A stretch of 64,000 bases of DNA from an uncultured Oscillospiraceae bacterium. Lineage in GTDB: Bacteria; Bacillota; Clostridia; Oscillospirales; Oscillospiraceae. The translations under genes were made by a program, and so were the position numbers. Location of the stretch: assembly GCA_947625045.1 (NCBI GenBank), contig CANQMW010000007.1, positions 1 through 64,000 on the forward strand, given 5' to 3'. The notes under the pieces are model-generated. The model saw nothing but the letters and a program-made list of their open reading frames with translations, made no database searches and had not been told where the DNA came from. Below are positions 2,362 through 53,668 of this stretch, piece after piece. Each line of letters opens with the position of its first letter. Positions within the stretch are counted from its first letter, which is position 1.

Positions 2362-3270
2362 TCACAATGAGAAACTCATCTTTCCGCGTGGATGCTTTTC
2401 CGCCAGCAGCTGAGTCTGATGCTCCGCTGCCACATGCGTGTAGATCTGCGTAGTAGATATGGAGCTATGCCCTAGCAATGACTGTATATATCTAATGTCC
2501 ATGCCAGCCTCAAGCAGAGAGGTGGCGAAGGTGTGCCGGAACATGTGCGGGGTAATGTCGGTCTTTGTGTCGAGTTTGGCAAGGTACTTTCTAATAATGC
2601 GCCTGACAGACTGCGGCGAGAGCGGAGCCCCTCGATCGTTTATTAGAATGGTGTTTGTGCGCTGAATTTCGGCCTCATACTCTTTGTAGTATCTTTCTCC
2701 AAGCTGGAGCAGTTCCGGAGTAGTGATGTGAATGATACGTTCCTTACGTCCCTTGCCATAGATTAGCATCTTCATATCGTTGGTGTCGACGGAAAAGGTG
2801 TTATTGGAAAGAGAGCACAACTCGGATACCCTGGCACCGCTGCTGAACAACAGTTCCAGCACGAATATATCCCGCAGGACCTTCCGACGCCCTGGGACAT
2901 AAGCCCCATAAGCACATCGCAGAAGATCCTGAACCGTTCGCTCGGGGATCGTCCGCGGGAGTTGTTTAGACATGTGTATTTTTATGTGTAGTTTATCGAA
3001 AGGGTTGTTCTCCACCTCGCCGTTCTGCTCTAACGCATGATAAAAAGCGCATACGCTTGCTAGTTTCCGCTTCACCGATCTCGGGGCAAAGTGAATATTC
3101 AAATACTTGACGTATTCGCTCAATCTATCCTTTTCTGGCCAAGCACCATTTGTAAACTGGGAGAATTGTGCAAGATCGATACGATACGCTTTTACCGTGT
3201 GAGGAGATAGCTCCTTCTCATGCTCGCAGGCTTCCAAATACGTCTTAATGGCCTCGTTGATTTGTTTCAT
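2362..3270 (-). CDS. Tyrosine recombinase/integrase (XerC/D-like)
   Basis: SSGARVSEL, HMFRHTFATSLLEAG and LLGHSSISTTQIYTH catalytic boxes; start at MKQINEA preferred over the longer ORF to 3453. Confidence 0.92.
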   Translation of the reverse strand: MKQINEAIKTYLEACEHEKELSPHTVKAYRIDLAQFSQFTNGAWPEKDRLSEYVKYLNIHFAPRSVKRKLASVCAFYHALEQNGEVENNPFDKLHIKIHMSKQLPRTIPERTVQDLLRCAYGAYVPGRRKVLRDIFVLELLFSSGARVSELCSLSNNTFSVDTNDMKMLIYGKGRKERIIHITTPELLQLGERYYKEYEAEIQRTNTILINDRGAPLSPQSVRRIIRKYLAKLDTKTDITPHMFRHTFATSLLEAGMDIRYIQSLLGHSSISTTQIYTHVAAEHQTQLLAEKHPRGKMSFSL

Positions 3271-3703
3271 GGCGCCCTCCATAGTAAGGTATTTCTTCGA
3301 CATTATGGAGGCAGCTTTGCTCTTTGTCCAGCAGGATCCAGAATAATGCCAAGCATCATCAGTGATGCACTGATCAGCATCCAGCAGCCGCACCGCAACC
3401 CATCGCCTCCTCGGCAAGGGGCTGTTAGACATACACTGACCGGATGCGGTCAAGGCATCCAGGAGTGTATCATCAACCTGGAGGATACCCCACGTTGTAT
3501 TTATGAGACGCAGGCGGAAAAGCTGGTGCCCAGCCTCCTCTGACGAATGATTATAATGCCCATACTCACATCTTTTCTGATAACAAGTAGGTATGGGTAT
3601 TCATCCTATAGACTTGACTGGCAGTCAAGAATGTGACTCCCAGTTTATTGCATTGGAGAAGGCCCTGTGGTACAATTGGCAAAAAAGAACGCTGGGGGCT
3701 ATC

Positions 3704-12154: not shown

Positions 12155-12166
12155 ACGTTTACCGGA

Positions 12167-12883
12167 TCATTTTTTGATGCATCGGATACAGAAAGACAAA
12201 GGTGACAAAAAAACTCTTCTGATTCTGAACAAATAATCTTGTGCAACTCCTTCAACAAAAAAACCATGTTCCTCTAATATAGACGCAACTTCTTCACATT
12301 TTCGATATATAGGCTTGACGCCATTAAAATGTGCATCCCAGAATATATTTGGTGACGGATCAATGATAATAAGCTCGCTTCCGGTATACAAAGAGTTCAA
12401 CACATCAATGAATAATCCATCTTCAATATAACATAAAGAGTTGCACATAAATATAATATCATTTGAACCAGATAAGTATTTATATGCATTAGCAATATCA
12501 TCATTCTTCAGAATTCCGCAGTCATCTATATTTCGATTGCGTATCGAGAAATCGATTCCAGTATACCTGCTAATTGATAGTCTACGCTGTCTTAACCAAT
12601 AATATAGGCTACCATTACCACTCCCCAAATCCAGAATAGAAACATTGTGCCACGATTTAAAATCTACCAACAACTCAATTTTAGAATAATAGCCATTTGT
12701 AGAACCATCAAACAATAAATCATCCTGCTTTTCATAATAATTAGATATAAAAAATTTTCTAATTCCATCTTTTTTCGGAATGAAAAAAGGTAATGTTATA
12801 AAAGAAACGGCTGATACATATAATTGCCTCATATATTTTTTAAATCCAGGAATCCATTCTGCCACTACTTTATATATCATCAT
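12167..12883 (-). CDS. Class I SAM-dependent methyltransferase
   Basis: VSILDLGSGNGSLYYWLR..YTGIDFS..NDIIFMCNSLCYI. Confidence 0.7.
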   Translation of the reverse strand: MMIYKVVAEWIPGFKKYMRQLYVSAVSFITLPFFIPKKDGIRKFFISNYYEKQDDLLFDGSTNGYYSKIELLVDFKSWHNVSILDLGSGNGSLYYWLRQRRLSISRYTGIDFSIRNRNIDDCGILKNDDIANAYKYLSGSNDIIFMCNSLCYIEDGLFIDVLNSLYTGSELIIIDPSPNIFWDAHFNGVKPIYRKCEEVASILEEHGFFVEGVAQDYLFRIRRVFLSPLSFCIRCIKK

Positions 12884-14441
12884 TCACATTCCTTTGCATC
12901 CAATACATAGGATATCCTGTTATAAAATCATTCTTATCGAGCATTCTTTTAGGCTTTTTATTCTTAAGGTTAACCATTCCTATAAATCTGGTTAGCGAAG
13001 ACTTTTTAGAATAATATGAAAGCACATCATACATTAATCTCTGAGCAACACCATTGCGCCGATATTGCTCTAGAACGTATATATTCTCTAGATGAACTTT
13101 GTTGGTTGCTTTATGGTAATGTGTTAAACAAAATCCGATGAGCGTTTTCTCAAAGAATGCTCCGATACAATAATCCTCCTCAACAGAAAACCACTCTTCA
13201 AGCTCACTGTCACTCCAACAATCACAAATCGCGCCGCAGTCAAACGAATAATGATGCAAATAAAGCGAAACAGAACTCACATCACATTCTGCTAGACGAT
13301 GAAGCGTTACATGATTGGCAATCTTATTATCTACTCTTTCCCCGGAAATCCATACTTCTTCTGGGTATCCAAGCAAATCGAGATTTGTGAGTGGATTGTC
13401 CTTGTAGCATGAAAAATCTGCATAATAGCCCTGAGCAATTCTCCCCAGCTTATCGCCTAACATTAGGGCCTGTGGTGTTGTAATTAGGTCTGAAAACAAT
13501 ATCCGTTCAATAGATATTCCAAAATCTGAATTTAATAGCTTTATCTCTCTTATTAACGAATCACAGGGTGTGCCACTAAAGCCCGAATCAGTACCTAAGG
13601 CCACCATAAGATTATTTTCAAATAATTTAGGAATTACTTTTTTCTCCCCAACAATCCAACTTTTGAGTACTTCTCCATTAATATCGCTAAATGTTTTGCA
13701 ATTATCAAGCGTGCTGTCGACCGATGCAACATAAGTTGGTATAATAATTACGTTCCGCTTTTTAATCATCTGCAATAATGAATCGCTATAGTCTCCAGCA
13801 TGCTCCAAAGTGTCTGTACCTGCTAGAACCGCTTCAAACGCTGCCTTCTCTGTGTAGGCATGACAGGAAACCAACAGATCATTACTGTGCGCGAATTCTA
13901 TCATACTCTCCAACAGGTCAAATGAAAAGGCATTGTCACCATGCAGAATTTTACAAAAGTGTATATCACTACTAATTAATTTGCTTATCGCATTTTTGAA
14001 TTGTAAAATATCCGTAACCACAACAGCGCCACGATCATGACAATGTCCCCCTGGGCAGGTAAAAAAACAACCAGAAGTATAAATCCTCGGTAGGTAGTTC
14101 TTATTAAGCCTGTTCACAATACCTATCGGCTTAAAGGAGAAACCTCCCATATCTTTTAAAGTGGTAATCCCGCATTTGCATGCATCTAAAGCATTTTTGA
14201 GAGCAATTTCGTGTAATGTACTCGTTAGCTCTTCATCGTACGGGTTCTCAAGAATATGGCAATGTGCATCAATTAGCCCTGGCAATATGTAACGAGAATA
14301 CTTCTTTTCTTCAACACAATCTGTAAAATCAACATCAACAATTGTGCCATCAGAAATAGTAAGGCAATTAAGCTGCAGCCATTTTGCACTTATAGCGTCA
14401 TAGAAGCAAGTATTATTCGGCTTATAAATATAATCACTCAA
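12870..14441 (-). CDS. Amidohydrolase (imidazolonepropionase-like) fused to a C-terminal GNAT acetyltransferase
   Basis: ILPGLIDAHCHI, VSCHAYTEKA, DTLEHAG, ALGTDSGFSGTP; C-terminal VHLENIYVLEQYRRNGVAQRLMYDVL. Confidence 0.85.
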   Translation of the reverse strand: MSDYIYKPNNTCFYDAISAKWLQLNCLTISDGTIVDVDFTDCVEEKKYSRYILPGLIDAHCHILENPYDEELTSTLHEIALKNALDACKCGITTLKDMGGFSFKPIGIVNRLNKNYLPRIYTSGCFFTCPGGHCHDRGAVVVTDILQFKNAISKLISSDIHFCKILHGDNAFSFDLLESMIEFAHSNDLLVSCHAYTEKAAFEAVLAGTDTLEHAGDYSDSLLQMIKKRNVIIIPTYVASVDSTLDNCKTFSDINGEVLKSWIVGEKKVIPKLFENNLMVALGTDSGFSGTPCDSLIREIKLLNSDFGISIERILFSDLITTPQALMLGDKLGRIAQGYYADFSCYKDNPLTNLDLLGYPEEVWISGERVDNKIANHVTLHRLAECDVSSVSLYLHHYSFDCGAICDCWSDSELEEWFSVEEDYCIGAFFEKTLIGFCLTHYHKATNKVHLENIYVLEQYRRNGVAQRLMYDVLSYYSKKSSLTRFIGMVNLKNKKPKRMLDKNDFITGYPMYWMQRNVNDDI

Positions 14442-14453
14442 TATATCACCTCT

Positions 14454-15011
14454 TCAGTTTTTCGCAGAGCTATAATCTTTTGATTGTCTAAAGTTCTTTA
14501 TATAAAAATCATAATACCAAACAGTAAGCACAGCAATCCACATTATCATCCCAACATACTGAAGATAGATTATAAAAGAATTTGACATAACCTTCTGAAG
14601 AATAAATACAATCAAACTATATACAATTGAAGAAATATTGCACACTTGATACTTATGCAATGTAGCTTTTAACTTTGCATCCTGACTTTCCAAAAGTATA
14701 TTCCAGAGAAAATAGAAAATAAAGATTAAAGAACTAAATAAAAAGAAGTGTTCGTATGAACCGTCAGCAAGTTCTAGCAACGTTAGAAAATATAGCGCCA
14801 GGCAAAATGCATCAATCAGTAAGTATAAATCACCATAAGAAATACTGTCATCCTCTGAAGCTGTCCATCCATTCAACGCTGCTATAAATTCTATAACTGC
14901 AAATAGACGAATTATCATACTGCTACTTCTATAGAAAACAACCACTGCAAAGCCCATGAGAGCAACAATAGCAAATTTAAACGCAACCGGATATCGTCTT
15001 TCAGTGTCCAA
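14454..15011 (-). CDS. Multi-pass membrane protein, unknown function
   Basis: Several hydrophobic segments. Confidence 0.65.
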   Translation of the reverse strand: MDTERRYPVAFKFAIVALMGFAVVVFYRSSSMIIRLFAVIEFIAALNGWTASEDDSISYGDLYLLIDAFCLALYFLTLLELADGSYEHFFLFSSLIFIFYFLWNILLESQDAKLKATLHKYQVCNISSIVYSLIVFILQKVMSNSFIIYLQYVGMIMWIAVLTVWYYDFYIKNFRQSKDYSSAKN

Positions 15012-15015
15012 GCGA

Positions 15016-15918
15016 TCACTTCCTATCTAAATGATACATCTCAAAGTACTCATCCATCTCCGCCCAAGCATCACAACAGCTACAGAGTGCTATTTCTCTG
15101 TATCGCTCTGCCATATGCAAATCTCTCAATCTTGATATTTGCTCACCGTTCCAAATATCAAATAAAGATTCTTCATTGCTATCACCCAGAAAAAGCCTGT
15201 TTTCATAGTCAAAGCAACATGCAGATACTATGCCGTTCCAATGAATTGTCATCTTATTCCACAAATCTGCACATGGAACTCTAGGCCTACCTAACACTGG
15301 ACTAAGATTATTACTAGCTAAATTTAGGCTTGGCATTTGGTTAGCCCATGTATATAAGCAAGAAATCTCCAAATCGCAGTCATATTTAGCCCATTTCTTC
15401 ATGAAACAATCTCGCTCTGCGTTATTTACATACATATCAATAAATTGCAGAACTACATGAACTCGATCATTATTACTAAGCAAATATTCTAAATTATCAT
15501 TTAGCTGATCCAAATCACCCCCGCATCTAATCAAATCATAAACTGTATTTGAATCACATGCATCGACTGAAACTATCAACTCATCCAAACCAACCTCATT
15601 CAACCTATGAACGGCATAGTCCGTTAATAGACTTCCATTTGTCGAGACAATGACTTTCGACTTTGTCCTTTCCTTACACCAGCGTATAAGAGTATATATC
15701 TCTGGATTCAAAAATGGTTCTCCCATCCAATACAATTGTACAACTTCAGCACTATCACTAATTTGATTCAAAATCGAATCATAGAGTTTCATTGACATAC
15801 ATCCAACGGGTTTATCTTGTGAAGCAATTGAATTCGGACAAATACTGCAATGGAAGTTACATTTATTCGTTGGCTCAATAACATAATATTTGGGGAGGGG
15901 GTAACGACTTTTCATCAT
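15016..15918 (-). CDS. Radical SAM protein with SPASM-like C-terminal Cys cluster
   Basis: IEPTNKCNFHCSICPNS (CxxxCxxC); IVSACCFDYENRLFLGD..ALCSCCDAW. Confidence 0.9.
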   Translation of the reverse strand: MMKSRYPLPKYYVIEPTNKCNFHCSICPNSIASQDKPVGCMSMKLYDSILNQISDSAEVVQLYWMGEPFLNPEIYTLIRWCKERTKSKVIVSTNGSLLTDYAVHRLNEVGLDELIVSVDACDSNTVYDLIRCGGDLDQLNDNLEYLLSNNDRVHVVLQFIDMYVNNAERDCFMKKWAKYDCDLEISCLYTWANQMPSLNLASNNLSPVLGRPRVPCADLWNKMTIHWNGIVSACCFDYENRLFLGDSNEESLFDIWNGEQISRLRDLHMAERYREIALCSCCDAWAEMDEYFEMYHLDRK

Positions 15919-16692
15919 CTACTCCATGCAATATACACTGCCAGAAAATGCAGTTTCAAATCCAAGTTCACGATACCATTTCTCTACCGTGCTTCCAGCC
16001 TCTGTCTGCAAAAATAACACTTCTCCTAATCTTCTACTCCATTCATATATACATGCATTAGTAACAGCAGTTCCGTATCCATGGCTTCTGCTATCAGACA
16101 AAGTCCCCACATTATATATACCGCCTTTTCCTTCTTCAATACAAAGTGTCGCAACTGACAAAGGAATGTTATTGCAATAGCAGATATAATGAATGAATTT
16201 CTCACTATTCGAAAAAGAACGAGTAAGCGCATCTATATATGTTTTATCAAGCTCACCATACGGCTGCTCTGGAGTTCTTTCACCACAATAAGCACTCATA
16301 AACACTCTAATAAAATCCTGTATTGTCTTATCATCACGCACTTGCCTAATAACCAGATCTTTTGCTTCCTGTCGTTGCTGTTTTGATTTATATACCATGA
16401 ACGATTCTTCAGACATCTTCACAAATCCATTATGTTTTAGGTATTCAATTGTATCCATCTGTTCCTTTTCATTAACTATATAAACTGACGGTGTTCTTCC
16501 TGAACTTAGAAAAGTACGCTTAATGCTTGGTAGTACATCTGTAAGATGTGTATTTTCTCTTAGAATTGCATAATTCCAAAAGCCATCGGTAATTATATCA
16601 CTCAAATAAGCAGTCCAATCCTCATAGTCTAAACAATGGTCAAAAAACATCCCTTCTTGTACCTTGTAATGCCATTTTAATAAATCATTCAT
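15919..16692 (-). CDS. GNAT-family N-acetyltransferase
   Basis: GGIYNVGTLSDSRSHGYGTAVTNACIYEWSRRLGEVLFLQTEAGSTVEKWYRELGF. Confidence 0.82.
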   Translation of the reverse strand: MNDLLKWHYKVQEGMFFDHCLDYEDWTAYLSDIITDGFWNYAILRENTHLTDVLPSIKRTFLSSGRTPSVYIVNEKEQMDTIEYLKHNGFVKMSEESFMVYKSKQQRQEAKDLVIRQVRDDKTIQDFIRVFMSAYCGERTPEQPYGELDKTYIDALTRSFSNSEKFIHYICYCNNIPLSVATLCIEEGKGGIYNVGTLSDSRSHGYGTAVTNACIYEWSRRLGEVLFLQTEAGSTVEKWYRELGFETAFSGSVYCME

Positions 16693-16705
16693 AATACTAT
16701 CCTCC

Positions 16706-17299
16706 TTATTGCTTTATTAATGTTATAATAACTGAAACCATTGCTCCAATAATACTTATATATAACCCAGTCCAAAACTCTTTCCTTTTATTGTTTCTTA
16801 TGTGCCTTTCAACTTCACCACACCTTTGATATAACAATTCCAAATCTTCTTGGGCTCGAGTAATGTTATTCACCTTTAACGATTCGGATATTCTTTTGAA
16901 AATTTCTGCGCTTAAGTTTGAAACTTTAATATACGTATTTTTCCTTTTAATAGCGTCAATCAAGATATCTATCTTAAATAGTATGTTTTTCCTCTGTTCT
17001 TTTTGAATTTCTATTGCACGAAGCTTTGTCAGATCATTAAGCATCTCATTATAATTTATCTCTCCATCCATATAGTATAGTGGTTCGAAACTTTCAAGTA
17101 AATCTATAATTCTCTTTGTGCAATCAGGCTCACTATTCTCAACATTTGAGCTGAATAATAATTTTATAATTTTCTTCTTCCTTTTAAACACAAAAAATTT
17201 TTTGCTATGATTTGCCAGCAGATAGTAAAGATACCCTAATATGAACATAGCAGGGAATGAGTACTGGAAAACCTTTTTTAACATGTCTATTAACACCAT
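16706..17299 (-). CDS. Membrane protein with N- and C-terminal TM segments
   Basis: SFPAMFILGYLYYLLA and LYISIIGAMVSVIITLI. Confidence 0.6.
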   Translation of the reverse strand: MVLIDMLKKVFQYSFPAMFILGYLYYLLANHSKKFFVFKRKKKIIKLLFSSNVENSEPDCTKRIIDLLESFEPLYYMDGEINYNEMLNDLTKLRAIEIQKEQRKNILFKIDILIDAIKRKNTYIKVSNLSAEIFKRISESLKVNNITRAQEDLELLYQRCGEVERHIRNNKRKEFWTGLYISIIGAMVSVIITLIKQ

Positions 17300-17412
17300 G
17301 CTTTCTCAATTTAACAAGCCGTCAATGACAACCACTTCCATCTTTTTGTATAACTAATCTTACCTCTTGTATTACTTCGTCATACAAGTAAACATCTGGG
17401 GACAAATCATGA

Positions 17413-17506
17413 GGTTGTCATAGACGGGCAGGTACTGCTTCGACATGCCCTTGGTGATGGGTTGTATTCTCATTCCATATCTCCTGGCCAAGATGACACT
17501 TCACAT
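17413..17506 (-). pseudogene. rfbA: 5' remnant of glucose-1-phosphate thymidylyltransferase
   Basis: M*SVILARRYGMRIQPITKGMSKQYLPVYDNLMI aligns to [34 protein letters not shown] of the intact rfbA at 45966-46841. Confidence 0.75.
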
Positions 17507-17519
17507 GTTCTTTACCTTT

Positions 17520-19391
17520 CTACAGTTCCTGTGCCGCCCTATCCAGCGCCACAGCGATGGTTTCATCCATGTCGTAATACTGATATTCCCCCAGCCGGCC
17601 GCCGAAAATCACATCCGGCCGCTCCTTCGCCAGGTCAAGATACTGCTCGTACAGCGCCAGGTTCCGCTCGTCGCTCACAGGATAAAAAGCCTCCCGCCCG
17701 GGCACCCACTCCCGGGGATATTCCCGGGTGATCACCGTCTTCGGGCTCTTCTGCCCCGACAGATGCTTGTGCTCGACGATCCGCGTATAGAGCGGCTTTT
17801 TCTCGCAGTAGTTCACCACCGCATGGCCCTGGGAGTCCTCCTGCTCCAGCGTCTCGGTCTCGAACCGCAGGCTCCGGTATTCCAGCTGCCCCAGCTCGTA
17901 CCCGAAGAACTCGTCTATGGGCCCGGTGTATACGGTCTTCTTCGCGATGTCCGGGAAGGCGTTCACCAGCTTTTCATAGCTCATCTCCGTCGCCGCCGGG
18001 ATGCCCTCCAAAAGCTTCTCTATGAGCCCGTTGTAGCCCCCCTCCGGGATGCCCTGGTGCTCATCCTCAAAGTACCGGTCGTCCTCTGTGAACCGCAGGG
18101 GGATGCGCTTGATGACGTCCGCCGGCAGGCTTTTGCAGGGCCGGCCCCACTGTTTCTCCGTGTAGCCTTTGATAAGCGTCTTGTACAGGTCCTTCCCTAC
18201 CAGCGCCAGCGCCTGCTCTTCCAGGTCCTTCGGCTCGTGGTCCAGCCTCGGCCGCTGGGACGCAAGCTTCTTTTTGGCCTCCTCCGGCGTCTTCACGCCC
18301 CACAGCTGCTCAAAGGTCTTCATATTGAAGGGCAGGGAATACTCCTTCTCCCCGCTCACCGCCATCACCCGGTGGGTATAGGGCCGGAAAGCGGTGAAGC
18401 GGTTCACATACTCCCACACCGCCTCGTTGTCCGTGTGGAAGATATGGGCGCCGTACTTGTGGACGGTAATGCCCTCTATGTCCTCGCAGGCCACGTTCCC
18501 GCCCAACTGGGGCCGTTTGTCGATGACGATGCATCTCTTGCCCTTGTCCGCCATCTCCCGGGCAAACACACTGCCGTAGAGGCCGCTGCCCACGATAAGG
18601 TAGTCGTACTTCTCGTTGAGCGCCGCCCATATGGCCCTGGCCTGGTCCAGCGTGACAGCCTTGTCCAGATACTGCTGATAAAGCCCGCATATTACCGCCG
18701 TGTCCCCATAGGCGATCTGCTCCCCATGCTCCAGCCACAGCACCTTCGTGCACAGCTCCTGCACCTGCGCAAGGGAATGGGACACCAATATCGTCGCCGC
18801 GCCCCGGGCGATGATCTCCCGCATCTTGGCTTCGCTCTTTTTTCGGAAAGCGCCGTCGCCGACCGACAGCACCTCGTCCAAGATGAGGATATCCGGCTGG
18901 ACCATGCTGGCGATGGAGAACGCCAGCCGGCTCTTCATGCCGCTGGAAAGCTGTTTGAAAGGCCTGTCCTGGAAATCATGCAGCTCAGCGAATTCGATGA
19001 TCTCGTCGTAGGTCTCATCCATAAACTTCCGGGTGTAGCCCAGCATAGCACCCCGGAGGTAGGCGTTTTCTTTTACCGTCAGCTCTCCGTCAAAGCCAGA
19101 GGCCAGTTCCAGCAGCGCCGCCACGTTCCCCCGCCTCTTCACCCGGCCTTCCGTGGGCTCCATGATGCCCGACACCGCCTTCAGAAGCGTGGATTTGCCC
19201 GCGCCGTTGCTGCCGATGATCCCCAGCATCTCCCCCTCATCCAGGGTGAAGGAGACGTCCTTGTCCGCCCAGAACTCGTTCACATGATAGTTGCGGGTCA
19301 GACGCCGCATCACATACTCTTTGAGCCCTATCTCCTTAAAGTCTCCCGTCATATACCGGATGGAGACGTTTTTCACTTCCAATACGCTCAT
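17520..19391 (-). CDS. Fusion: polysaccharide ABC exporter ATPase (Wzt/TagH-like) plus UDP-galactopyranose mutase
   Basis: N-term GIIGSNGAGKSTLLKAVSG, QLSSGMKSRLAFSIA; C-term YDYLIVGSGLYGSVFAREMADKGKRCIVIDKRPQLGGN..YGAHIFHTDNEAVWEYVN; one 623-aa frame. Confidence 0.93.
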   Translation of the reverse strand: MSVLEVKNVSIRYMTGDFKEIGLKEYVMRRLTRNYHVNEFWADKDVSFTLDEGEMLGIIGSNGAGKSTLLKAVSGIMEPTEGRVKRRGNVAALLELASGFDGELTVKENAYLRGAMLGYTRKFMDETYDEIIEFAELHDFQDRPFKQLSSGMKSRLAFSIASMVQPDILILDEVLSVGDGAFRKKSEAKMREIIARGAATILVSHSLAQVQELCTKVLWLEHGEQIAYGDTAVICGLYQQYLDKAVTLDQARAIWAALNEKYDYLIVGSGLYGSVFAREMADKGKRCIVIDKRPQLGGNVACEDIEGITVHKYGAHIFHTDNEAVWEYVNRFTAFRPYTHRVMAVSGEKEYSLPFNMKTFEQLWGVKTPEEAKKKLASQRPRLDHEPKDLEEQALALVGKDLYKTLIKGYTEKQWGRPCKSLPADVIKRIPLRFTEDDRYFEDEHQGIPEGGYNGLIEKLLEGIPAATEMSYEKLVNAFPDIAKKTVYTGPIDEFFGYELGQLEYRSLRFETETLEQEDSQGHAVVNYCEKKPLYTRIVEHKHLSGQKSPKTVITREYPREWVPGREAFYPVSDERNLALYEQYLDLAKERPDVIFGGRLGEYQYYDMDETIAVALDRAAQEL

Positions 19392-50560: not shown

Positions 50561-53500
50561 TTAGTTTAACAAGTTATGTTGGTTAGAAATTAAAACATTG
50601 TGTTCTTGAAAACCACAAAGTTGACAAAGCTTTTGTCTTAATGAATGAGTACAAATTCGATGGTTGAGATAATAACCAACGATAGAATCGAGTACTCGAG
50701 CCGCATAGATTTCATTTTCACCCTCAAAGCAATCTCTCAATTGTTTAACATCATAATAGTTAAAACTATTTAAACAATTAATTTTAAGGTCGAGCAATAC
50801 GAGTTTGGAAGATATGGATGAATCAGCCTCAAATGAAGTTGTTGCTGCTCGTAATAAGTGCTTGCTGTTTAATGAGGTGGCAACTTGATGAACCATGTTG
50901 CTTGCCATTCCTGAAACCAAAATTTTGACAAAGGTACGAGTCGCTTGGAGCGCAGCCTCCCTTGTAATATTCTTATTATTCGCTACAGCGCGCTGATATG
51001 CAAATTCAACTAAATCACCCTCGATGAAAACTATCATATCATTTATAGCGCGCACTGCACGCATACCGAGTTTATGGATCTCGCTAATAATATTAATTTT
51101 ATCTTCGCCCTTAATATCAGTTGGATAATTTTGCAGAATTTGTCCCAGCACTTCAATTGTCTTTAGTGCTGACACAACTGCCGCCATGTCTTTATCTTTA
51201 TCTGAGAGACTGTCATCTATTATCTCTTCACCTTCATGCACCGAACCATCTACAATTCCTATTTCATCTTTTAGTGTAAGTTCTCTTCTCTGATTCTCTG
51301 AAACTTCATCATCCGTAGACGCGACGGAAGAAGGGACAAGTGCTTCTACGACTTCCTGAATATCCTCAAATATGGGATCATCTTTGTTGAAGTCGAACTC
51401 TTGATAATCATCCAACGTACAGTACGCATTCAACAGAACATTGTCAATCACCTCAGAACTATTTGCGAAGTGACACACAAAAATAACAATGTTTCCATAC
51501 GTCTCATTGTACAGTCTTGAACTCATATACTCAAGTAATTGTAGGACATCTTTATCTGCAATATTGGCAGCAATATATCTCCCGCAAAAGTAGTAAAATA
51601 TATATGGGTATTTAAATCTAAATACCTCGCCCGCGCTTTGATCCTTATAAAACAGTTTCGCTTTGAGCATATTGTTCAAGAACTCATTTACTGAAAGTCG
51701 AAGCATATATGTAGAGCTAATCACTTCAACCACCGCTTCTAATTCTTCTACTGTAAAGCTTGTTTTCTTTTCAGAAAGCATTAAATATGCCAACCTTGAC
51801 AAGATGCTTAAATCAGTATTAATATTTCCTGACTGGTAATAATCCTCCGACAGGACCTGAAGACTCCCAAGAATCAGCGACTCATACAAAAAACTATATT
51901 TGCTGCCTTTAAATATCGGCCTAACCGCATCAACATTTTGCAAAACGCTTAATACAGTTATTGGCATTGCTGGAATAAACGCAGCACCATTTCCTAAAAC
52001 CGTATCAACTTTATTTCTCGCCTGTTCTATACGTTCAGATATTTCAGGCTCAGTCATTGATCTGTTCTGCAAATGATACCACTTAGATATTAACTCGTTC
52101 CTTTTTGCGTTTCCGAGCGGTAAAATCTCATAGTATATGAGATTATCCCATGTTCTAACCGTTTTTGATGTCAGTATAGTTGCCAACTCTAATGGGGAGG
52201 TCAGCAGCAAGCTAACGTTTCCAAAATATCCACACAGAAAATCGACCACTTGGTTTCTTCTGTTGTTAGAATCTTTAATATAATCAAAATCATCGACAAT
52301 AATCTTTCTCTTTTCTCTCTTTAGTTGTCTAAAATCCTCCAATGCACTTTCTGAGTATTGAGAAACAAATGCCTCCTCAACAACTTTCATAATACTAGAC
52401 TCTGATGACGCAGTAAAGGACCTTCCATTTACAATCAAACAGCAACAATCAGAATCTTTTTCGCTAAAAAAGATTCTGTTGGCCAGAGCAGTCTTTCCAG
52501 CACATGAGTCTCCTGTCAAGATGTTTAATGAGTTCTTATTGAGCTCAGCTAGCACGTTCGTGCGTATGACTCTACTCCTCATCTTTTCGTTCTTGAAATT
52601 GCACTTGTTCAATTCCGGCCATACGTATATATCCGATAGCAATACTTCCTCGGCGGCAAAATGGTTAATTGTAACCCCAATATCATTTGCTCTATTAATA
52701 CTTTCCTCGTTAGGACAGTAGGGATTCATTGTAGCAGCAATATTCTTGTGATACTGCTGTTTATGTGCATTCCCCATTCGTTCGTATTTTTTGCCTGTCC
52801 AGCAATAGTCGATAATTTCGTATGTCTGAAGTGCGCCATCAAAGTTAATTACAGAGAATGCGCTCTCGTCATCGTCACTGTTCTGTAACTCTTTTCCTTT
52901 GTCAATATACAGCGAAAAATTATCCCAACCCTTATTATAGTTATCTCTGTTATGTTCATGTCCCATGAGCACAATATCAGCTTTACTTCGTATGTAGTTA
53001 ATGAAGTCGGTTTTATGATCGGGGTTCATCCAATTTATTGGATGATGGAAAAGAAATACCACAACCCTGTAATTCTCTGGAGATATATCTTCAAAGTGCT
53101 CGGTCGGCATAACTATTTTGCCGGGCACTTCGCAAATTTTAGACATCCATGATGTGTTCGCCATCACAAATAAGCATTTGCTTCCATCGACTTCTATCTC
53201 TGATCTCGGCAAATACATGTCAGTATTAATCCCATGTGCTTTAGCAAATTCAAAATAGCCCTGCTGCACCACGGTCACATTCCTATAGAAATCATCATCA
53301 AGTTTACTTTGGTGGACACTATTTATCAAAACTTCCCTCGTTGTTGTTTCTCTGTCAAAGTCGCAGTCATGGTTTCCTGGTACACATATAAAATGCACTT
53401 TAGAATTCTTCTCTTTTTCTATAAACTCTGCTATATCATTAATCAGTTCATTAGCCAAATCATATTGTTGCTTTTTTCCAGAATACGCAATATCACCCGT

Positions 53501-53668
53501 TATCGCAAGTACAACATCCCCGTTGCTAGGCAATGCGCTAGCACAGGCAGAAGCCAACTTGTCCTTCTTCATCAGGATAGTATCATCATGTCCACTTATA
53601 TGTATATCAGACAAGTGAATAATTGACAGGCTCATATCTTTCTTCCCCCAAATCAGTATGAATGTCAA
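50561..53668 (-). CDS. Calcineurin-like metallophosphoesterase fused to a STAND/NACHT-like P-loop NTPase and helical C-terminus
   Basis: LSIIHLSDIHISG, ITGDIAYSG, VPGNHDCDF, FLFHHPINW, LMGHEHNRD; then NILTGDSCAGKTALANR Walker A and KIIVDDFDYI Walker B. Confidence 0.85.
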   Translation of the reverse strand: MTFILIWGKKDMSLSIIHLSDIHISGHDDTILMKKDKLASACASALPSNGDVVLAITGDIAYSGKKQQYDLANELINDIAEFIEKEKNSKVHFICVPGNHDCDFDRETTTREVLINSVHQSKLDDDFYRNVTVVQQGYFEFAKAHGINTDMYLPRSEIEVDGSKCLFVMANTSWMSKICEVPGKIVMPTEHFEDISPENYRVVVFLFHHPINWMNPDHKTDFINYIRSKADIVLMGHEHNRDNYNKGWDNFSLYIDKGKELQNSDDDESAFSVINFDGALQTYEIIDYCWTGKKYERMGNAHKQQYHKNIAATMNPYCPNEESINRANDIGVTINHFAAEEVLLSDIYVWPELNKCNFKNEKMRSRVIRTNVLAELNKNSLNILTGDSCAGKTALANRIFFSEKDSDCCCLIVNGRSFTASSESSIMKVVEEAFVSQYSESALEDFRQLKREKRKIIVDDFDYIKDSNNRRNQVVDFLCGYFGNVSLLLTSPLELATILTSKTVRTWDNLIYYEILPLGNAKRNELISKWYHLQNRSMTEPEISERIEQARNKVDTVLGNGAAFIPAMPITVLSVLQNVDAVRPIFKGSKYSFLYESLILGSLQVLSEDYYQSGNINTDLSILSRLAYLMLSEKKTSFTVEELEAVVEVISSTYMLRLSVNEFLNNMLKAKLFYKDQSAGEVFRFKYPYIFYYFCGRYIAANIADKDVLQLLEYMSSRLYNETYGNIVIFVCHFANSSEVIDNVLLNAYCTLDDYQEFDFNKDDPIFEDIQEVVEALVPSSVASTDDEVSENQRRELTLKDEIGIVDGSVHEGEEIIDDSLSDKDKDMAAVVSALKTIEVLGQILQNYPTDIKGEDKINIISEIHKLGMRAVRAINDMIVFIEGDLVEFAYQRAVANNKNITREAALQATRTFVKILVSGMASNMVHQVATSLNSKHLLRAATTSFEADSSISSKLVLLDLKINCLNSFNYYDVKQLRDCFEGENEIYAARVLDSIVGYYLNHRICTHSLRQKLCQLCGFQEHNVLISNQHNLLN

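Follow-up and report, generated by a model that had tools for sequence, protein, structure and literature searches.

A low-GC six-gene block with a BtrN-type radical SAM protein downstream of a surface-polymer cluster in an uncultured Oscillospiraceae bacterium

Layout, composition and borders of the operon

The window considered here (the whole stretch of 64,000 nucleotides that was analysed, from one contig of an uncultured Oscillospiraceae bacterium) contains six minus-strand open reading frames, here termed genes a to f in order of transcription, at the downstream end of a surface-polymer cluster (Table 1). All six are intact and lie at 12167-17299, as an earlier, sequence-only reading of this DNA had stated. 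The gaps between them range from -14 to +13 bp, with the stop codon of gene b abutting the start of gene c (which begins at the next base) and the start of gene f placed inside gene e, and the six genes look translationally coupled. Domain calls against Pfam returned a radical SAM protein with a SPASM match, a GNAT acetyltransferase, an Amidohydro_1 domain fused to a second GNAT domain and a weak class I methyltransferase; among the domain calls for the six genes there was neither a scaffold-forming enzyme nor an identifiable transporter, and when the whole set was scanned with Pfam and NCBIfam, neither glycosyltransferases nor aminotransferases nor nucleotide-sugar enzymes came up in the operon.

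Table 1. Genes and border features of the operon (positions in the window).
Feature	Position	Strand	Description or basis
Gene a	16706..17299	-	197-aa helical protein, C-terminal membrane segment, no family
Gene b	15919..16692	-	257 aa, C-terminal GNAT acetyltransferase domain
Gene c	15016..15918	-	BtrN-type radical SAM/twitch enzyme
Gene d	14454..15011	-	185 aa, membrane protein with some five hydrophobic segments and no family match
Gene e	12870..14441	-	Prolidase/arginine-carboxypeptidase-like amidohydrolase fused to GNAT domain
Gene f	12167..12883	-	Class I SAM-dependent methyltransferase-like protein, LDLGSGNG motif
Downstream scar: XRE regulator without its six initial codons	11843..12166	-	Comparison with orthologue in sister genome G001
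Decayed 5' rmlA fragment (upstream scar)	17381..17506	-	tblastn to the RmlA of the window
ABC-transporter ATPase fused to UDP-galactopyranose mutase (ABC-GLF)	17520..19391	-	Last polymer-cluster gene, directly upstream of the operon

The block is, as had been noted, far richer in AT than its neighbours: its genes have a GC content of 0.298-0.376 and a GC3 of 0.27-0.34, against 50-60% GC in the flanking DNA. Nearly all genes of the polymer cluster fall between 0.48 and 0.63 in GC and between 0.49 and 0.83 in GC3 (with TagF, at 0.40 and 0.41, as the exception), and the Y-pol and LexA genes have a GC of about 0.55 and a GC3 of about 0.7. The uniformity of composition within the operon argues for one donor.

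Both borders of the block carry scars. On the downstream side, the XRE (helix-turn-helix) regulator has a 76%-identical orthologue in the sister genome G001 that begins MIDKRFGKRVKECRERIG, of which the copy in the window retains only SGKRVKACSEQL, read directly on from the stop codon of gene f; at the nucleotide level, homology to G001 extends exactly as far as 12163, which is three bases away from the stop codon of gene f, and the loss of the six codons coincides exactly with the start of the AT-rich DNA. On the upstream side, the decayed rmlA fragment aligns to the intact RmlA of the window with 48% identity over 42 amino acids (tblastn, E 6e-8) and is interrupted by an internal stop. These two scars indicate that some 5.2 kb (roughly 12164 to 17380) were acquired, replacing or interrupting earlier content; the operon is one acquired block. 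Flanking direct repeats were considered as marks of insertion, and the sole pair found about 5.4 kb apart (18 nt, 83%) is chance-like. A phage origin was likewise rejected: PHROG matches were limited to generic domains, phages and plasmids gave no match at the DNA level, and viral contigs contained no relative.

The polymer cluster that lies upstream on the same strand encodes an ABC permease, the ATPase-GLF fusion, LuxC/LuxE acyl-activating proteins and an MBOAT protein, as well as a CDP-glycerol glycerophosphotransferase, LicD, an IspD-like protein and RmlA. Two sister genomes retain the in-frame ABC-GLF fusion, with identities of 80% and 67%, and it is therefore regarded as real. Between 21213 and 36445, this teichoic-acid-like cluster also holds an unusual mixture of genes: two sets of LuxC/LuxE acyl-reductase and acyl-synthetase, AMP-binding proteins, SDRs, a split transketolase and MBOAT. 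A consensus scan of the DNA that separates the operon from the GLF gene recognised neither a terminator nor a minus-strand promoter, which is weak evidence; this arrangement would allow read-through from the polymer cluster into the operon.

In G001, whose ABC-GLF gene is 80% identical, the operon is absent, and it is not kept at the matching place in the related polymer cluster of that genome. The DNA downstream of ABC-GLF there (L066:10655-15615) carries a different low-GC cargo, which by eye includes adenylosuccinate-synthetase-like and MazF-like genes, and this side of the polymer cluster resembles a cargo ‘hot spot’. Two further features were seen elsewhere in the window. One is a Thoeris-like pair at 119-2231 (a SIR2-STALD protein matching the ThsA model at E 7.8e-101, and a convergent TIR-domain gene) that adjoins a tyrosine integrase at 2362-3453; the other is a low-GC gene for a 1035-aa protein at 50561-53668, with calcineurin-like phosphoesterase and STAND NTPase signals and a match to the candidate defence model PDC-S60 (E 4.7e-58).

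The encoded proteins

Gene c had been taken for a SPASM protein. A Pfam SPASM match is indeed found at its C-terminus, but the domain holds four auxiliary cysteines rather than seven, and is a twitch domain. The CxxxCxxC radical SAM motif (cysteines 20, 24 and 27) and a four-cysteine auxiliary [4Fe-4S] site (cysteines 216, 234, 279 and 282) are both present, with cluster binding predicted at each; C20, C24, C27, C216, C234, C279 and C282 are the only cysteines that are invariant among seven relatives, and the auxiliary spacing, C-18-C-45-C-3-C, is common to L086 and L088.

The best match in both sequence and fold is BtrN (PDB 4m7s/4m7t), a twitch radical SAM sugar-alcohol dehydrogenase from the pathway to the aminocyclitol antibiotic butirosin that oxidises an amino-cyclitol alcohol to a ketone, and which combines a radical SAM core with one auxiliary cluster ligated by four cysteines in the same spacing. 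A profile built from the seven relatives matched BtrN at E 4.6e-29 across both domains, with the twitch part free of gaps, and Foldseek placed BtrN at the top (E 2.3e-10) for a gene c model of moderate confidence (pLDDT 63), with the spectinomycin radical SAM enzyme SpeY (7wzv) and several RiPP enzymes ranked lower. In contrast to BtrN, gene c is about 50 residues longer than the ordered chain of the BtrN structure, and no aminocyclitol genes were recognised among its scanned neighbours. By analogy, gene c may be expected to perform a BtrN-type conversion of an alcohol to a ketone. An assignment as prokaryotic viperin (pVip) was rejected, with gene c scoring 40.7 bits against a cut-off of 180 (NF038283) and viperin matches confined to the core.

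The amidohydrolase half of gene e has a complete set of metal ligands (DAHCH at 58, FCKI at 162, SCHAY at 192, LEHAG at 212 and GTDSG at 283), and shares with prolidase and Zn arginine-carboxypeptidase-like amidohydrolases (2p9b, Cc2672 3mtw and 3be7) the binuclear set of HxH, Lys, His, His and Asp. It differs from known amidohydrolases in that its identity to them is only remote (23-32% to genomic relatives) and in its C-terminal GNAT domain, for which the searches returned no full-length counterpart. Gene b carries an acetyl-CoA motif, RSHGYG, at about residue 202, and has only remote relatives (in the genus, the phylum sample and plasmids); its single-sequence structure model (pLDDT 44.5) was not usable. 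For gene f, the methyltransferase assignment is based on a weak class I match and the motif given in Table 1, and the match lies below curated cut-offs. The proposal of two membrane proteins stands in part: genes a and d both have membrane segments, but gene a is mostly soluble and helical, with its C-terminal segment only. Neither gene a nor gene d matched a family in Pfam and NCBIfam scans.

Relatives of the operon and their genomic settings

Conservation of the gene order in other genomes, which the sequence-only reading had put forward for checking, was looked for with the fusion, GNAT and radical SAM proteins, and only remote paralogues were recovered. A full-length counterpart of gene e was found neither among 99 relatives nor in 391 genomes of the class (a search that reported only matches at E 1e-20 or better), nor in genome contigs, viral contigs and plasmids; a pattern scan across some 85,000 species, which would detect close relatives only, returned none. 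Searches with the radical SAM protein covered family, phylum and order samples, genome contigs and plasmids. The description of the block as a foreign modification operon of unfamiliar composition is upheld, with no copy and no full-length homologue of the fusion in any collection searched; no described operon of comparable composition was found in the open-access literature searched. The enzyme types are individually known, but none of the other sampled genomes showed them in this combination. The operon is foreign, coherent and apparently functional, and we infer that its six genes are co-transcribed. By the yardstick of the sequence-only reading itself, under which a gene order not conserved elsewhere would count against it, these searches lend no support to a conserved new system, and the claim of a new one is based on one instance.

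The six nearest relatives of gene c in the phylum sample are 27-32% identical to it, and five of them adjoin sugar genes (DegT, GFO/IDH, PglD, epimerase or WbqC); the sixth, on a 4-kb contig (L090), adjoins an asparagine synthase and a GNAT-like gene. These nearest relatives often lie beside methyltransferases. Glycosyltransferases, DegT, WbqC or rfbC were also present at four of six plasmid loci inspected, whereas for looser relatives recognisable sugar neighbours are often absent; overall, 12 of 35 radical SAM loci were sugar-positive, as judged with a limited probe set and no matched control. An association of gene c-type radical SAM proteins with sugar genes is suggestive.

The closest analogue in composition is a sugar cluster (L087) made up of an epimerase, WbqC, GT2, a PglD-like acetyltransferase, the radical SAM protein, a methyltransferase and a creatininase. 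There, as on the Solidesulfovibrio plasmid pDCAR1 (DegT, radical SAM, methyltransferase and WbqC), a radical SAM protein of the length class of gene c stands beside a methyltransferase; L087 further has an acetyltransferase and an amide hydrolase nearby. Both loci nonetheless differ from the operon in having glycosyltransferases and no amidohydrolase-GNAT fusion, and their radical SAM proteins are about 30% identical to gene c or less.

Candidate functions

The reading that we rank best, to which we assign a probability of roughly 0.4, is that of a horizontally acquired, co-transcribed six-gene module at the end of the surface-polymer cluster that acts in the decoration of a building block resembling a sugar (a polyol or amino-sugar); a stand-alone small-molecule pathway is a close second. 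This ranking is based on the uniformly low GC3, the border scars, the BtrN match, the sugar neighbours of the relatives, the absence of a recognised terminator and the complete metal ligands. Counting against it are the lack of glycosyltransferase, aminotransferase and nucleotide-sugar genes within the operon, its absence from the sister genome with the ABC-GLF gene, the looser radical SAM relatives that often have no recognisable sugar genes nearby, and the moderate confidence of the gene c model. In such a module, the twitch enzyme encoded by gene c would oxidise a hydroxyl to a ketone in the manner of BtrN, an acyl or aminoacyl group would be taken off by the amidohydrolase half of gene e, the GNAT domains of genes e and b would N-acetylate, the methyltransferase would cap the product, and the two membrane proteins might hold or move it at the membrane. 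The substrate, the order of these steps and the tie to the neighbouring polymer are points that we infer.

It is also possible, albeit less likely, that the genes form a self-contained pathway to a small molecule (an amino-sugar, a cyclitol or a modified amino acid) that is unrelated to the polymer, and merely resides in a cargo hot spot. The absence of the operon from a sister genome that has ABC-GLF, together with the different cargo found there, implies that the site may be no more than such a hot spot, and the sharp borders, a base composition unlike that of the polymer genes, the membership of BtrN in an aminocyclitol antibiotic pathway and the additional match to SpeY all fit this alternative. 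It is harder to reconcile with an operon that includes no scaffold-forming enzyme or identifiable transporter, and that lacks its own promoter-like site upstream. A module of defence or anti-phage cargo occupying a variable site, as might be suggested by the other low-GC genes of the window (the Thoeris-like pair and the PDC-S60 gene, both defence genes) and by border genes that resemble mobile-element debris, is improbable: the six proteins match no PADLOC model beyond a generic superfamily signal, and viperin matches (E about 1e-11) are confined to the radical SAM core and are far surpassed by BtrN. Chance recombination of AT-rich genes with no joint function, which would agree with a gene order seen in no other genome searched and with scars on both flanks, is held to be just as improbable, given reading frames that overlap or abut throughout, a uniform composition and intact enzyme motifs.

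Peptide maturation, to which the SPASM assignment had pointed, is not borne out, in that the operon has no precursor reading frame, no RRE and, in place of a seven-cysteine SPASM maturase, a BtrN-type twitch protein. The small-ORF scan proposed for finding a precursor detected none: the gaps between genes are at most 13 bp and hold no same-strand reading frame, and the 220-bp leader consists of rmlA debris only. There is no room for an RRE in the 19 residues that precede the first cluster cysteine of gene c, Pfam and NCBIfam found no RRE or PqqD-like family in the six proteins, and the match to the RRE-less epimerase EpeE, the kind of radical SAM enzyme envisaged for a system with an unannotated or distant precursor, is far weaker than that to BtrN. 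Radical SAM enzymes and methyltransferases are nevertheless known from RiPP clusters, and some RiPP radical SAM enzymes are leader-independent (PMC8326336), for which reason RiPP-type modification is retained, as the least probable of the alternatives. A Pfam SPASM match is not by itself proof of peptide maturation, and a common over-reading is corrected here.

Returning to the decoration of a sugar-like building block, a broader proposal, held with low confidence, is that the operon represents an undescribed pathway in which a BtrN-type dehydrogenase and a bifunctional amidohydrolase-acetyltransferase, exchanging an acyl group on one polypeptide, together supply the cell surface with a new sugar or metabolite that is oxidised, N-acetylated and methylated. 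If this is true, the twitch radical SAM dehydrogenases of aminocyclitol antibiotics would be linked to the modification of surface sugars, and gene e would combine hydrolase and acetyltransferase in a single chain, with a substrate from which the pathway could be identified.
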